Shown here piece after piece: positions 5,458 to 32,797 of a DNA stretch of 43,421 nucleotides; positions within the stretch are counted from its first letter, which is position 1; every line of letters starts with the position of its first letter. A program made the position numbers and the translations under genes. The DNA is taken from assembly GCA_903858185.1 (NCBI GenBank), contig CAIOHT010000011.1, positions 1 through 43,421 on the forward strand, written 5' to 3'. Under the pieces are notes generated by a model. That model was not told the origin of the DNA, ran no database searches, and saw only the letters and a list, made by a program, of their open reading frames with translations. The stretch comes from an uncultured Caulobacterales bacterium. Lineage in GTDB: Bacteria > Pseudomonadota > Alphaproteobacteria > Caulobacterales > Caulobacteraceae.

Positions 5458-6615
5458 CTATTCGCCCTCCATCGTCGCCAGGCGGCGGCGCGGCTGGGCC
5501 GCGACCGCCTCGACGAATCCGCGCACGCGGCCGGCGGTCGACAGTTCGGTCACCGCGATGGCGTCCAGACGGCGGCGCAGACTGGCGACCATGCCGTCAC
5601 GGCGGGCGCCGGCCAGGGTCCAGACCCGCTCGCGCCCCCCCGCCAGGACTCCGGCGGGGGTCGACGCGGCCGCCGTGCCCTCGCCGACCCGCTGTGTCGG
5701 GGCGGCGTAGTGTCGCTTGTAATGGTCATGGCTCGGACCGAGGTCATAGGTCGTCAGACCCAGACCCGGCATGGCGGCGATGGCCTTCATCAGAAAGGTC
5801 TGGCCTGGCGAGTATTCGCCCAGAGCCGGGTTCGTCGAGGCCACCCAGGGGTGATACCAGCCGTTCTGCGCCACGCCGAAATGGCCGGCGGCGATGGTGT
5901 CGCCCGCCCACATCGTCAGGGTAATGCCCCGCAGCGGTCCACGCGCGGTGGCGAAGTTCGCCAGCAGGTCGCGCGTCCAGTCCGGCCGCAGAAAGTCGGC
6001 GACGCCCGTGCGGATCAGCTGCTCGCGCTTCCAGTCCATGATCTGCTCGTAGACCGCGGGATCATCGCTGGCCTCGATCCGCACCGGACCAACCTCTCGT
6101 TCCAGCTTGCTGTCGAGACGGCGCCAGTTCTTGAAGCGTTTGGGCGAAGCGGCGCGCAGGCCTTCGAGATAGTCCGTCGGCGCGGCCGTCAGGGTCACCG
6201 CATAGCCGTACGCCTCGCCCGCAGTGGCCTCGGCGAAGACCCCGTAGGGATCGACCAGACCGGTGAAGCGCCAGGCGCTGAGCCCGGCCAGACCCAGGAC
6301 GCGGTCGGCGGTGAGGTCGGCGTGCGGCCCGGCGATCAGGCCGTGATAGTCCGCCAGCGGCGCGCCGAGCGGCCGGGCCATGCCACCCGGACGCCGGTGA
6401 TGAGGCAGGAAGCCGACGATGGCCGTATCGTCGCGATAGACCGTCACCCGGGCGTCGTCCCGCACCACGCCGACGGCGATTGAAAAGTCCGGCCCCAGCA
6501 GCGGATTGCCGAACGCGGGCTCGGCGACGACCAGCGCCGACCAGGCCGACACCTCGTCGAGGGTCAGGGCGGCGGGGTGGACTGTGCGGGCACTCAACAT
6601 CGCGGGGCGGCTCAC
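5458..6615 (-). CDS. GNAT/FemAB-type acyltransferase (BioF2/CelD-like)
   Basis: 385 residues from a GTG at 6615; an ATG at 6600 is an alternative and neither has a convincing ribosome site. The C-terminal half has the BioF2-like acetyltransferase pattern: KRFKNWRRLDSKLEREVG, DWKREQLIRTG, IAAGHFGV, YHPWVASTNPALGEYSPGQ and TYDLGPSHDHYKRHY. This domain occurs in proteins of exopolysaccharide and cellulose biosynthesis (CelD family) and in FemAB-like transferases. As first gene of the cluster with a glycosyltransferase and a cupin-like protein, it probably acylates or aminoacylates a cell-surface glycan. Confidence 0.75.
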   Translation of the reverse strand: MSRPAMLSARTVHPAALTLDEVSAWSALVVAEPAFGNPLLGPDFSIAVGVVRDDARVTVYRDDTAIVGFLPHHRRPGGMARPLGAPLADYHGLIAGPHADLTADRVLGLAGLSAWRFTGLVDPYGVFAEATAGEAYGYAVTLTAAPTDYLEGLRAASPKRFKNWRRLDSKLEREVGPVRIEASDDPAVYEQIMDWKREQLIRTGVADFLRPDWTRDLLANFATARGPLRGITLTMWAGDTIAAGHFGVAQNGWYHPWVASTNPALGEYSPGQTFLMKAIAAMPGLGLTTYDLGPSHDHYKRHYAAPTQRVGEGTAAASTPAGVLAGGRERVWTLAGARRDGMVASLRRRLDAIAVTELSTAGRVRGFVEAVAAQPRRRLATMEGE

Positions 6616-6680
6616 TTTGGGGACAAACCCTGTCCCTGTCAGGGATTCTCACCCCTGCCCAAGCAAGTACCGGGCCGGAC

Positions 6681-7178
6681 TTAACGGCTGAATACGGACG
6701 CGAGGATTTGCTCGAGCCAGCGGGCGTCGACCGCGTCAAAGGCGGCCGGCTGGTCGGAATCGACGTCGAAGACCGCAATCAGGTCGCCGTCAGGGCCGAA
6801 CACCGGGACCACCACCTCACTCTGCGAGCGGCCGTCGCAGGCGATGTGCCCTGGAAAGGCGTGGACATCGGGAACAAGCTGGGTCTGGCCGGTGGCCGCC
6901 GCCGCGCCGCAGACGCCGCGGCCGAAGGCGATGCGCAGGCAGCCGAGCGTGCCCTGGTAGGGCCCGACGACCAGCTCGCCCGGCTTGTCCGGATCGACGA
7001 CATAGAAGCCGGTCCAGAAGTAGTGGTCGAAACTGGCCGCCAGCATCGAGGCGACTGTGGCCATCCGCGCGGTGCGGTTGGGCTCTCCGTCCAGCACGGC
7101 GGCGATCTCGGCGGCCACCTCGGCGTAGCGGGCCTCGCGGTCGGCGGACAGGGTCAGGTCGTTGAAAGCTTCGGCCAT
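6681..7178 (-). CDS. msrC: Free methionine-(R)-sulfoxide reductase (GAF domain)
   Basis: 165 residues forming one GAF domain. The three cysteines of the fRMsr family are present as Cys80 (GTLGCLRI), Cys90 (GRGVCGAA) and Cys114 (HIACDGRSQSE). Their spacing of 10 and 24 residues equals that of Escherichia coli Cys84, Cys94 and Cys118. The enzyme reduces free L-methionine-R-sulfoxide in the cytosol using thioredoxin. It is transcribed alone or ahead of the acyltransferase gene 65 bp downstream. No ribosome site is obvious before the ATG. Confidence 0.9.
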   Translation of the reverse strand: MAEAFNDLTLSADREARYAEVAAEIAAVLDGEPNRTARMATVASMLAASFDHYFWTGFYVVDPDKPGELVVGPYQGTLGCLRIAFGRGVCGAAAATGQTQLVPDVHAFPGHIACDGRSQSEVVVPVFGPDGDLIAVFDVDSDQPAAFDAVDARWLEQILASVFSR

Positions 7179-27683: not shown

Positions 27684-28280
27684 ATGATGACGCTGTTCGA
27701 CTTCACCTTCGGCCTCAGCGCCGTGATCCTGGGCCTGGCGCTCGCGCAGATGGCCTCGAGCCTGCACCGGCTGGCGATGGCCGGCCGGCGCGTGAAATGG
27801 GCGCCCGAGCCGCTGCTGCTGGCGGTGCTGGTGTTCCTGGTGATCGTCTCGGTCTGGCTCTACCAGTGGGACGAGCGGCTGCGCACCAGCACGACCATCG
27901 GCCTGGTGCTGCTGAACGTGCTGAAGCTGCTGTTCCCCTACCTGGCCGCCGCCTTCGTCCTGCCCGAGCAGCCGCAGGCCGAGGGCGAGGTCGACCTCTA
28001 CGCCCACTATGACCGCACCCGGCCGTTCACCTACGGGGCGATGATCTGCGGGCTGATCCTGTTCTGGGTGACCGGCCTCGTCGGCTGGGTGGTCCGCGTC
28101 GGCCTGCCGCAGCACAAGCCCCTTCCGTGGCTGGACGCACTGGCCGAGGGGCCCTGGGTGGTGGTGGCGATCTACGGCGCGCTGATCTGGATCCGCAACC
28201 GGTGGGTCCACCGGCTGGCCCTCATCGGGGCCGTCGGCTGGTACGGCTGGTCGATCGCCGGGATTTCGCTGACGCAGTAG
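27684..28280 (+). CDS. Multi-pass membrane protein
   Basis: 198 residues; the ATG at 27684 or the next codon at 27687 follows GGGGGG. About five hydrophobic helices (SAVILGLALAQMASSLHRLA, LLLAVLVFLVIVSVWLYQW, GLVLLNVLKLLFPYLAAAF, GAMICGLILFWVTGLVGWVV and a C-terminal pair). I do not recognise the family and there is no soluble domain to hint at function. It is convergent with the small protein gene at 28319. Confidence 0.7.
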   Translation: MMTLFDFTFGLSAVILGLALAQMASSLHRLAMAGRRVKWAPEPLLLAVLVFLVIVSVWLYQWDERLRTSTTIGLVLLNVLKLLFPYLAAAFVLPEQPQAEGEVDLYAHYDRTRPFTYGAMICGLILFWVTGLVGWVVRVGLPQHKPLPWLDALAEGPWVVVAIYGALIWIRNRWVHRLALIGAVGWYGWSIAGISLTQ

Positions 28281-28318
28281 GGGGGCTCGATCTCACGCTG
28301 GCCAGCCCGCCGAACTGG

Positions 28319-28477
28319 CTACTTCTTCGGCGGCTTCACGGCCGAGCCGCCGGTCGGCGGTTTGCCATGCTGGCTGGTCGAGGGCTGATAGCCTCCCTGC
28401 ACCTTGCCCGGCACATAGCCGCGGTGCTCGGATCGACCAACCGGCGGCGCGGGCCGGGATGTCGTGTTCTCGCTCAT
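28319..28477 (-). CDS. 52-residue Gly/Pro/Lys-rich small protein
   Basis: The ATG at 28477 overlaps the stop of the upstream DUF6338-like gene as ATGA, which strongly argues that it is translated. The sequence is polar and low-complexity: HRGYVPGKVQGGYQPS in the middle and PPTGGSAVKPPKK at the end, with no signal or hydrophobic segment. I know similar GYQP...PPKK micro-proteins from annotations next to DUF6338 genes but cannot verify it here. Function is unknown; it may be a flexible partner of the membrane protein. Confidence 0.65.
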   Translation of the reverse strand: MSENTTSRPAPPVGRSEHRGYVPGKVQGGYQPSTSQHGKPPTGGSAVKPPKK

Positions 28478-29073
28478 GACGCCTCCGCGAAGATCTCGAC
28501 GTGCCGGATATCCTTACCACAGAGCAGAATGCTCCGCGCGGGCAACAGTTCGCTCCAGGCCCCCAGGCCATCGATCTCCCAGACCCGCTCCACGAGCAGA
28601 TCGCGTTCTTCCCGGCTAGAGGACGCGAATGACGCACCACCGAGAAGGCCCGCGATCTGGGAATCGTTGTTGAGGGTTACAAGGACAAAGGTGCCCTGCC
28701 GCATTCGGCTGAACGCGAAGTCCCATGCTGTCGGAACCGGATGGACGAGGTCGAGCCCCAGTCGTGAGGCCAGCCGACGCAGCCACTGTCCGTTGATCTC
28801 ATAGGCCAGCAGGACGCCGAGCACCGTGGGCGCGACGACATACTGCAGCAGCGTCCAGAGCGTGAGCGGCAGGATCACACCGCCGGGCCAGTGGAAGACC
28901 GGCCAGGCGGCCGCATAGTAGATCGACGAGAGCGCCGCGTAGTGGAGCAGCCTGTCCTTCAGGTCCGGCTTCGGCCCAACCTGAACCGAAGCCCGGATCG
29001 TCAGTATGATGAGGCCCGGCGCGAGGATACTCGCGAGGGTCTTCAGCTTGTCCGGGTCGAGGACGGTGTCCAT
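28474..29073 (-). CDS. DUF6338-like membrane protein
   Basis: 199 residues. Two or three membrane segments occupy residues 15-95 (LASILAPGLIILTIRASVQ, LLHYAALSSIYYAAAWPVFHW, LTLWTLLQYVVAPTVLGVLL). A cytoplasmic C-domain carries PVPTAWDFAFSRM, FVLVTLNNDSQIAGLLGGASFASS, RDLLVERVWEIDG and ARSILLCGKDIRHVEIF. That order matches the DUF6338 family, whose function is not established. AAGG lies before the ATG. Translation is coupled to the 52-residue protein. It sits in the accessory segment behind thiC. Confidence 0.7.
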   Translation of the reverse strand: MDTVLDPDKLKTLASILAPGLIILTIRASVQVGPKPDLKDRLLHYAALSSIYYAAAWPVFHWPGGVILPLTLWTLLQYVVAPTVLGVLLAYEINGQWLRRLASRLGLDLVHPVPTAWDFAFSRMRQGTFVLVTLNNDSQIAGLLGGASFASSSREERDLLVERVWEIDGLGAWSELLPARSILLCGKDIRHVEIFAEAS

Positions 29074-29126
29074 TTCACGACCTTAACGCGCATTTTCTGC
29101 AATGCAATTCGACAGGCGCGACACGC

Positions 29127-29265
29127 CTTCGATCTCATGCAGGCCAGCCTGCCGACCGGTCCAGGTCAGTCAAGGCCGGGCCTCTGGCCCGCCGCGCGCG
29201 GTGGCGCGAAGCGCCAGCCTTGAGTGACCTGGGCCGGTCGGCGATGATCTTGGCATGAGATGAAG
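29127..29265. other. Large cruciform/branched inverted repeat between the OLD-like and DUF6338-like genes
   Basis: Outer arms ATCTCATGC (29132-29140) and GCATGAGAT (29253-29261) pair perfectly and extend by CTTC/GAAG with one bulged base. A fully mismatched 10x10 internal loop follows. A 26-bp upper stem (29151-29176 with 29217-29242) then has only two mismatches, one of them G-U. The 40-nt apex holds two perfect six-bp hairpins: CGGGCC-TCT-GGCCCG (29177-29191) and TGGCGC-GAA-GCGCCA (29202-29216), joined by the palindrome CCGCGCGCGG. It is either a structured RNA on the minus-strand transcript or a DNA element such as a MITE. No T run follows. Confidence 0.75.
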
Positions 29266-29298
29266 CGTTAGATGGAAGGAAGTTGTCTGAAGGTTGAC

Positions 29299-30684
29299 CT
29301 AGAGCTTCGAAAAATAATCTCGGATTTCTTCAAGAACGGAGATCGACTGCTCCCTATACTCCGTCCGAACAGTCCTGTTTCCTTCATTAAGAAGGCCAAC
29401 TACCGCTTCGCGAGGCCGAACTGCGGGTTTTGTTCGAATATCGTCAGCGGGAATAGCGGTGAAGAGAAAGTCGGGGAAATCACGCGACAGATCCGTGACC
29501 ATGGCCGCTCGGTTTCCGTCCACCAGCCCGGCAACCTTGCGAAATCCGAGTTCCCAGAGCATCTGCGCAATCGTTCGCATGTTGTCGGCTCCGCCAACAC
29601 CCCAACCATAACTCGAACCACCGACCCTCACGCCCAAGTCGTCTTCGACGCGAGGCCAATAATAAATATCCTCTTGCCCCTCTAACAGGAGCACTCCGTC
29701 ACTGGAAAATAGGGTTTCTCGCGCATTTATTCCGACTACGTGCGGATTATGGCTGTTCGCAACAAGTCGACCTACATCTCGCGCCGTTTCAATTGAAAGC
29801 TCATTTACCTTCGATCCAGTGTCGGATTGAGATACGCGAACTAATCTCATGCCATTAGATATACTAGGAATTTCGACAAAATAGGGAGAATGAGTCGAGA
29901 TAATTATTTGCCTATCTTGTGAAAATTCCCTCAGCTTTCTGAATAGGCGACGCTGAAGGTCAGGATGCAGCGACAACTCAGGCTCGTCTATTACAATTGT
30001 ATCGCCGGGGTTTGAGTCGTACAGAGCATCCACGATATACATCAAACTAACCAAGCCCTCTCCCATACCTTCACTTGTATGGTAGGCGCCCGATCCGTTT
30101 CTTATTTTGAGAAAATATTGTCCGTTGTCAGATTGGTCGATGCTCCAGTTTACCGGATGGCCAACAACTTCCTCCAATATACGGTCAAATCCAGATCGAT
30201 CTTCCAGAATTTTGAACAGACGGTAGGCGAACTCATTGAGCCGACTTGAGCGAGCTGGCGGGAAGCCCATTTGTTGCATGTACGCGGAACGACCCGAGGT
30301 AGATTTTCCGAAGTAGGGATCAAATACGCGCCTCGATGGCAGTACAAAAATTCGCGACTGATCGACCCCTGGCCCTTGGTGGGTGAAAGTTGCCTCGCTT
30401 CCGCTCGCCATCAGACTCCGGAGCCGCCGAGAACCTCCGTCATCTCCGGTGACGGTGATATCCACTTGATCACCTGCAGAAAGGTTTCGACGTCCCTGGG
30501 AGAAACTCGGTGCATCCATTTGCGCGGCGGCGCGAATAGCTTCCACAAGCGTGGACTTACCGGAGTTATTCTCGCCAACAATTACGGTCAAACCCTCAGT
30601 GCACTCGCCGCCGGGAACGGCAAAATCCACCGATTGCTCGGTCCCAAAGCCCCGAAGGCCTTTGACCTTTAGATTTGATAGCAA
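29299..30684 (-). CDS. OLD-like ATP-dependent nuclease (AAA ATPase plus TOPRIM)
   Basis: 461 residues from a TTG at 30684 behind GGAGG. ABC-type ATPase: Walker A GENNSGKST (37-45), signature-like SEGMGEG (204-210), Walker B TIVIDEPELSLHP (from 229) and H-loop STHSPYF (His265). A TOPRIM region follows: LLLEGQEDIYYW (Glu335, Asp339), VGGADNMRTIAQ and GLVDGNRA (Asp389, with Asn391 where many have Asp). OLD-family proteins are DNA nucleases, several in anti-phage defence. No UvrD-like partner is present. The DNA is clearly AT-richer than its surroundings (22 of 60 G/C at 29881-29940), so it was probably acquired. It starts 15 bp after the thiC stop. Confidence 0.85.
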   Translation of the reverse strand: MLSNLKVKGLRGFGTEQSVDFAVPGGECTEGLTVIVGENNSGKSTLVEAIRAAAQMDAPSFSQGRRNLSAGDQVDITVTGDDGGSRRLRSLMASGSEATFTHQGPGVDQSRIFVLPSRRVFDPYFGKSTSGRSAYMQQMGFPPARSSRLNEFAYRLFKILEDRSGFDRILEEVVGHPVNWSIDQSDNGQYFLKIRNGSGAYHTSEGMGEGLVSLMYIVDALYDSNPGDTIVIDEPELSLHPDLQRRLFRKLREFSQDRQIIISTHSPYFVEIPSISNGMRLVRVSQSDTGSKVNELSIETARDVGRLVANSHNPHVVGINARETLFSSDGVLLLEGQEDIYYWPRVEDDLGVRVGGSSYGWGVGGADNMRTIAQMLWELGFRKVAGLVDGNRAAMVTDLSRDFPDFLFTAIPADDIRTKPAVRPREAVVGLLNEGNRTVRTEYREQSISVLEEIRDYFSKL

Positions 30685-30699: not shown

Positions 30700-32579
<1,880 letters not shown>

Positions 32580-32601: not shown

Positions 32602-32688
32602 CCGTTTCCCCGGCGAAGGCCGGGGCCCGGATTCATCCGCAGACTCGGCGGGCTTGACCTGGGCCCCGGCCTTCGCCGGGGAAACGGA
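32602..32688. repeat. Inverted pair of CCGGCGAAGGCCGG-type palindromes (copy 3), inside the thiC leader
   Basis: Left unit 32602-32630 (CCGTTTCCCCGGCGAAGGCC, then GGGGCCCGG), right unit 32659-32688 (CTGGGCCCCGGCC, then TTCGCCGGGGAAACGGA). The arms are almost exact reverse complements. The pair lies between the TPP aptamer and the thiC ribosome site, so it is transcribed as part of the leader. Confidence 0.8.
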
Positions 32689-32702
32689 TAGAAGAAGGCG
32701 CC

Positions 32703-32788
32703 TCTCCCTTCGCCGGCATGACCCGGATCAGGTTCGGCGGGTCACGGCCTCAGCCGACTCTCAGCCACTCAAGCGCGGCCCCCCGGAG
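32703..32788 (-). ncRNA. TPP riboswitch (THI element)
   Basis: On the minus strand the aptamer shows GGCTGAGAGTCGG (complement of 32754-32766) and ACCTGATCCGGGTCATGCCG followed by GCGAAGGGAG (complement of 32705-32734). These are the two conserved parts of the thiamine pyrophosphate aptamer. The 3' end of the aptamer is about 140 nt from the thiC ribosome site, an unusually long gap occupied by a repeat pair. Confidence 0.95.
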
Positions 32789-32797
32789 AACGGGTGG

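Follow-up and report, generated by a model that had tools for sequence, protein, structure and literature searches.

A palindromic repeat family of Caulobacter that often borders slots holding foreign genes

What is a long branched palindrome doing in the gap between two genes of a Caulobacterales genome? The stretch of DNA analysed here (the window: 43,421 nt, contig CAIOHT010000011.1 of GenBank assembly GCA_903858185.1, from an uncultured Caulobacterales bacterium) contains such an element, and the original prediction, made from the letters alone, proposed that it could be a structured RNA linked to the neighbouring genes or a non-autonomous mobile DNA. The palindrome proves to be a member of an intergenic palindromic repeat family of Caulobacter, which we call family A. 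We ask what the family is and what it stands beside. By DNA folding the window copy is 142 bp long (29125-29266). Throughout, the plus strand of a family-A element is the strand bearing its G.G mismatch, and the features of the window are as follows, with the evidence for each in brackets.

28286..28313, plus strand: partial family-A copy, left end only, right after the gene ending at 28280 (92.9% identity over 28 nt to the left end of A, E 2e-6)
28474..29073, minus strand: DUF6338 gene between the partial and the full copy of A (Pfam PF19865, E 7e-35; GC 0.64)
29125..29266, plus strand: family-A element, full copy (covariance-model match of 143.7 bits, E 3.7e-32; DNA fold)
29127..29140, plus strand: outer stem, left side, CTTC-(G bulge)-ATCTCATGC (DNA fold)
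29141..29150, plus strand: asymmetric internal loop, left side (DNA fold; 8 of 10 positions at least 90% identical in 73 copies)
29151..29176, plus strand: inner stem, left arm, in which G29169 is the conserved mismatch (DNA fold; GG in 101 of 102 copies)
29177..29216, plus strand: apex of three hairpins, namely a TCT triloop, a central CCGCGCGCGG and a GAA triloop (DNA fold)
29217..29242, plus strand: inner stem, right arm, in which G29224 is the mismatch partner (DNA fold; GG in 101 of 102 copies)
29243..29252, plus strand: asymmetric internal loop, right side (DNA fold; 7 of 10 positions at least 90% identical in 73 copies)
29253..29265, plus strand: outer stem, right side, GCATGAGAT-GAAG (DNA fold)
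29299..30684, minus strand: cargo gene, an AAA_21/AAA_15 ATPase of low GC, 0.51 (Pfam E 8e-28; PADLOC AriA E 1.9e-27)
30700..32553, minus strand: conserved flanking gene, read as thiC (its stop codon abuts the variable block)

DNA folding reproduced the outer stem, the 10x10 internal loop and the 26-position inner stem with two mismatches that had been described from the sequence. In the window copy the outer stem consists of CTTC/GAAG and a 9-bp helix, ATCTCATGC/GCATGAGAT, with a single bulged G, and the two non-Watson-Crick positions of the inner stem are a T.G and the G.G of 29169/29224. The TCT and GAA hairpins were correctly placed at the apex, but they are not the only ones: a third, central hairpin (29192-29201, CCGCGCGCGG) had been overlooked, and the stem and three hairpins form a four-way junction with zero unpaired junction bases. 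That the fold lies beyond chance was borne out for RNA and for DNA on either strand, as none of 200 shuffles was as low for the RNA of the element and its flanks (29107-29285; minimum free energy -103.5 kcal/mol, z -7.1), for the plus strand of 29125-29266 folded as DNA (-58, z -8.7) or for the minus strand (-53.6, z -7.5). There is no T run 3' of the element and, as already recognized, it is not an ordinary terminator.

Family A recurs within the genome of this bacterium, which carries another full copy (G000:C65, 80% identity) along with several partial copies, and it is found in many places across the genus, as expected if the palindrome is dispersed DNA. Matches by blastn were found in 34 of 101 genomes, its own included, all of one genus, and a covariance model placed the family in 48 of 75 genomes of that genus. 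At E 1e-5 the model matched 105 of 390 Caulobacteraceae genomes and 10 of 22 genera, counts that are inflated by matches on both strands and in which weak matches may be palindromes like those of family B, described below. At E 1e-8 it matched 2 of 385 genomes sampled across the class, namely its own genome and G529 (63.8 bits, likewise on both strands). A pattern for the right end matched at least 118 stretches in named GTDB genomes; among the 80 matches listed, most were from Caulobacter, including C. vibrioides OR37 and DSM 9893, some were from Caulobacterales or Proteobacteria MAGs, and six were strays (Corynebacterium, Treponema, a Myxococcales MAG and a Gammaproteobacteria MAG) that we take as chance or binning. 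Carriage of A by phages or plasmids was not found, and a pattern search of IMG/VR likewise gave no copy. From 155 loci we obtained 124 full copies, and 102 of these, distinct and with flanks, were retained (the other 22 lie near locus ends or have identical sequence); the family alignment holds 73 of the 102.

A search of the open-licence literature found no published description of family A, and the element was unmatched in Rfam at the gathering score, as well as at E up to 1 in 28900-29500. It is thus apparently an undescribed, strongly structured repeat. The Caulobacter CcrM-associated intergenic repeats (CIR) of Chen and Shapiro (2003) are described in the available parts of PMC2229807 and PMC10969869 as about 110 bp long, with two arms and a linker, GANTC at a loop and no terminal inverted repeat. 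Measured against that partial description, family A is similar in being multi-copy, intergenic, structured, longer than 100 bp and from Caulobacter, but forms one long end-to-end stem instead of two arms joined by a linker. We rejected CIR membership, as GANTC, the CcrM site, occurs in only 3 of the 102 distinct copies.

Like MITEs, REP/REPIN and ERIC-type repeats, family A is short, non-coding, palindromic, dispersed and intergenic, and its outer stem, in which 98.0% of cells are paired across the family alignment, corresponds to the terminal inverted repeats of MITEs. Unlike these repeats, it is associated with cargo slots, has an apex of three hairpins and lacks an association with Y1/RAYT. 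Transposition by a RAYT/Y1 enzyme was rejected on the distribution of PF01797, which occurs in 14 of the 48 genomes with A and in 8 of the 27 without it and is absent from the bacterium's own genome. Inspection of junctions by eye revealed no clean insertion of A alone, and no target duplication was noticed.

Other repeats and remnants accompany the family. Mini copies that keep both ends and have lost the inner hairpin occur in L064, L110, L141, L148, L151, L149 and L050, and several of them, judged by eye, resemble the products of deletion between short direct repeats of CAGC. Beside several sites of the window lineage stand separate hairpins of the type CCTCTCCC..GGGAGAGG (L002:800-1000, L005:1552-1700). 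In Caulobacter sp. 602-1, a region of about 700 nt to the right of A is 91-96% identical at five sites (L061:5653-6380, L043, L057, L084, L085); it is without convincing ORFs, and pieces of it are present in other loci.

The fold is maintained while its sequence changes. Across the 73 aligned copies, 95.1% of the cells at stem positions pair, against 81.9% after shuffling and 32-45% for slid structures, and changes on both sides that restore pairing occur in 27 of 48 pairs (26 of 38 by RNAalifold). Two-sided changes account for 441 cells, where shuffles lead to an expectation of 133, and one-sided changes for 51. At the apex, covariation is seen in 5 of 5 pairs of the first hairpin, 5 of 6 of the third and 1 of 4 of the central one. 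The G.G mismatch is kept in all but one of the 102 copies, and the internal loop is among the best-conserved parts of A; the earlier view that this loop is functional or the site of change is upheld to the extent that the loop matters. Copies of the Caulobacter (C) form have an additional hairpin on each flank of A, with stems of 5.59 on the left and 5.95 on the right against 3.74 in shuffles on either side (n=66, in a test of the 95 of 102 copies having both anchors and flanks).

Compensatory change was the evidence by which a structured RNA was to be recognized, and it is present. It does not single out RNA made from one strand, because two-sided changes far outnumber one-sided ones and G.T does not exceed A.C in the inner stem. 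There, G.T fills 15 cells and A.C 33 (20 of the latter in one column), a pattern suggestive of palindrome maintenance at the DNA level or of both strands folding. In the outer stem, where 20 G.T cells stand against 2 A.C (12 of the G.T in one column), the counts lean towards RNA. We set aside RNA as a verdict of the wobble test, as the inner stem is without a G.T preference and wobble cannot tell DNA from RNA folded on two strands. Quasi-palindrome correction could yield paired changes by mutation alone, and we would not expect it to preserve the G.G mismatch or the asymmetric loop. Recombination inside A was likewise rejected: just 2 of 102 copies have at least 4 of 16 stem mismatches, which indicates that the halves of A are rarely reshuffled.

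The neighbourhood of A is distinctive in composition. Mean GC is 0.68-0.69 three kilobases away and 0.605-0.62 in the kilobase to the left of A, where codon-based gene calls leave gaps that contain low-GC ORFs. Within 1800 nt of 105 elements there are 89 low-GC ORFs of at least 100 aa, which fall into 88 clusters, two being mutually homologous and the rest singletons. Under a cargo rule that takes ORFs of at least 100 aa with GC below 0.60 no more than 250 nt from A (GC and distance cut-offs chosen post hoc), a low-GC ORF adjoins 54 of 90 copies and 36 have none, 12 of the 102 copies having been omitted as too near locus ends. Control gaps in the same loci have such an ORF in 0 of 30 cases (Fisher 5.7e-10). 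Cargo lies to the left only in 34 copies of the C form, to the right only in 5 and on both sides in 1; in the W (window) form the counts are 3, 10 and 1. Family A often stands at the preferred side of a slot with a foreign, low-GC gene.

Cargo genes are found on the minus strand in 30 cases and on the plus strand in 20, so A is not a leader of one orientation. A 5' leader or riboswitch of the neighbouring gene had been considered, as many ORF starts faced A, yet was rejected because cargo occurs in both orientations. We scanned 75 proteins, comprising 74 of the 89 low-GC ORFs and the DUF6338 protein of the window; they matched 42 Pfam families, mostly once each, and no match was obtained for 7 of the 20 that were run singly. 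Among the cargo families are AAA_21, Mrr, GmrSD, ThsB_TIR, Fic, DndB, DUF4062, caspase, PIN and others, and the foreign gene at a slot beside A is sometimes defence-like.

In the window the order is a gene at 27684-28280, the partial A, the DUF6338 gene, the full A, the AAA_21 ATPase and thiC. With a GC of 0.64 the DUF6338 gene is not low-GC under the cargo rule; the ATPase gave AriA/OLD/GajA-like matches in PADLOC. The gene at 30700-32553 we take to be thiC from its protein sequence and from the TPP riboswitch 5' of it (32688-32795, minus strand; Rfam RF00059, 70 bits). Similarity to relatives such as G024 and G025 starts at the thiC stop codon, and in the relative G034, at a site without A, the same two flanking genes lie 337 nt apart with no cargo. 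Short same-strand runs occur in the window lineage (the window, L288 and L081), and the other loci covered have mostly single sites. Displaced copies of the thiC 3' end, 120-150 nt long and about 83% identical, lie downstream of intact thiC in the window orientation in L289 (G025; 6083-6231) and L291 (G028; 6679-6800), as if an arriving segment had brought its own thiC end from another species.

Sites shared between loci reveal how the slot contents change. We defined a shared site by at least one flank in which a called gene matches over 200 nt or more at 75%, and grouped the sites by single linkage; 65 of the 102 elements fall into 18 such groups, and A therefore seems to move little. Cargo is present on both sides of the comparison in 44 pairs (29 loci), about half from the L016 hot spot and one (L081) within one genome; 0 of the 44 have homologous cargo, and identity between their flanking genes is 79-97%. 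Where two species share a site, both have A and the neighbouring genes are unrelated; the original prediction did not anticipate this link to exchanged genes. Identity of A itself averages 0.82 at shared sites, 0.81 between different sites of one genome and 0.71 otherwise, between genomes.

The limits of the replaced block can be followed in several comparisons. Two hot spots have sharp edges. At the best-resolved site, L032/L069/L102, the block starts at the stop codon upstream and ends 16 nt short of the ATCTC of A. In the L016/L027 pair of the L016 hot spot it starts where the hairpin of the upstream terminator ends and stops at much the same place near A; L023, from the latter hot spot, has A and no cargo. 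Homology in L074/L117 extends over the hairpin adjoining A, and the near edge is unsharp in L034/L072, L034/L040, L037/L088 and L024/L030. At the far edge of the cargo, no common motif was found by eye. Exchange reaches up to A and rarely into it.

Flanks without A were compared at two genes. At purH, 22 full-length flanks lack A within 1500 nt, and 21 of these are also without a low-GC ORF there (two of the 21, G026 and G047, have A and cargo beyond 1500 nt), a low-GC ORF is present in 2 of 3 flanks with A, and G057 has a low-GC gene without A. At thiC, 29 flanks lack A within 1500 nt, and a low-GC ORF is present in 5 of these; A lies farther out in three of the 5, and G020 and G007 have a low-GC gene and no A in the stretches covered, which speaks against a strict need for A.

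A sister family provides a further comparison. Weaker covariance-model matches in the bacterium's own genome define family B, at 14 loci (L190-L215), which has the same plan as A with different ends and loops. Of the 14 loci, 12 are informative (one is without anchors, and the right anchor of L193 lies past the element), and in all 12 a G.G or C.C mismatch stands beside a shared TCAAGGA/TCCTTGA core. Family B sits in ordinary gaps, with no low-GC cargo in 13 of 14 loci; the 1 of 14 differs from the 54 of 90 for A (2.4e-4) under a looser distance for B (1800 nt against 250 nt), and the sole B positive lies within 250 nt anyway.

What, then, might A do at these slots? We tentatively favour the reading that A, as folded DNA, forms the edge or docking site of a slot for gene exchange, and so may mark or direct the sites at which new genes enter. 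We infer that family A acts at the DNA level: an exposed strand would adopt the hairpin and its four-way junction, one strand would be labelled by the asymmetric loop and G.G mismatch, and a putative host factor would use folded A as the docking edge for the joining of incoming segments. This edge would coincide with A's outer end, which in the Caulobacter form lies about 16 nt ahead of ATCTC, and exchange would seldom enter A proper. A form of gene capture that does not involve integrons appears unlikely; here A would be a folded single-strand recombination site for a putative Caulobacter enzyme that docks and swaps single foreign, partly defence genes, and A and B would be two site classes, B no longer or never taking cargo. 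No recombinase for A was found when integron integrase and Y1 were looked for.

The chief alternative is homologous-flank replacement, which could do the swapping with A as a bystander. Cargo would be exchanged by homologous recombination in the flanking core genes, donor DNA presumably arriving by, for example, transduction or gene transfer agents, and A would have spread earlier into the same tolerant gaps and have no role. We rate this as somewhat unlikely. For C. crescentus such replacement is documented in the available text of PMC6986707: of 114 transferred segments, 106 fell where both parents had unique genes, the transfers brought 279 genes and replaced 328, and crossovers were placed in homologous flanks. 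The slots beside A resemble that process, as far as this text describes it, in that one foreign segment supplants another at the same site; they differ in that it mentions no structured element at the edge, the word 'repeat' being absent from it. Low-GC genes without A at thiC, and once at purH, suit a passive repeat, as does the identity of 0.82 at shared sites, which is expected of inherited DNA. By itself, however, such replacement does not account for the side preference, for the control counts of 0 of 30 and 1 of 14 or for the return of homology, in the cleanest pairs, at the outer end of A. That A is an RNA insulator, a hairpin blocking or processing transcripts that perhaps arrive from both directions, and is selected where foreign genes abut core genes, is distinctly unlikely in our judgement: the very stable fold on both strands, the extra hairpins on both flanks of the C form and the outer-stem excess of G.T would fit it, and a need to fold on two strands would likewise suppress G.T pairs, but it leaves the conserved loop sequence and G.G mismatch unexplained, the T run is absent, and family B has a similar hairpin without cargo.

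A could instead be a MITE- or REP-like non-autonomous transposon that copies itself, its link to cargo being secondary. Dispersal on both strands, inverted ends, the higher identity between different sites within a genome (0.81) than between genomes (0.71) and the right-hand 700 nt or so shared by five copies in Caulobacter sp. 602-1 point that way; the lack of any noticed target duplication, the lack of association with a Y1 transposase and the 65 of 102 copies in shared-flank groups make it improbable. Integron attC sites are imperfect palindromes with an unpaired spacer, a variable apex and strand-marking unpaired bases, and diverse low-GC single genes adjoin them. Family A resembles attC in shape only, as a folded palindrome with an unpaired spacer, a variable apex and strand asymmetry, here including a strand-marking mismatch, and it too lies beside diverse low-GC single genes. 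It differs in that its sites are mostly single and dispersed, not arrays, in the loci seen, and in that A is present in both species while the gene differs. That A is the attC of a true integron's cassette array is highly improbable, and we rejected it, as no integron integrase (TIGR02249) scored over the cut-off in any of 75 genus genomes; matches below the cut-off, to tyrosine recombinases, occur in 74 of the 75.

Even as a passive marker, A is a covarying structure unmatched by Rfam scans and a sequence-defined flag for many Caulobacter cargo slots. If, as we tentatively propose, A takes part in exchange as a docking edge, that would tell us where a model bacterium gains and swaps single accessory genes, and how it does so without integrons, and the gene adjoining A would become a search handle for new defence genes.
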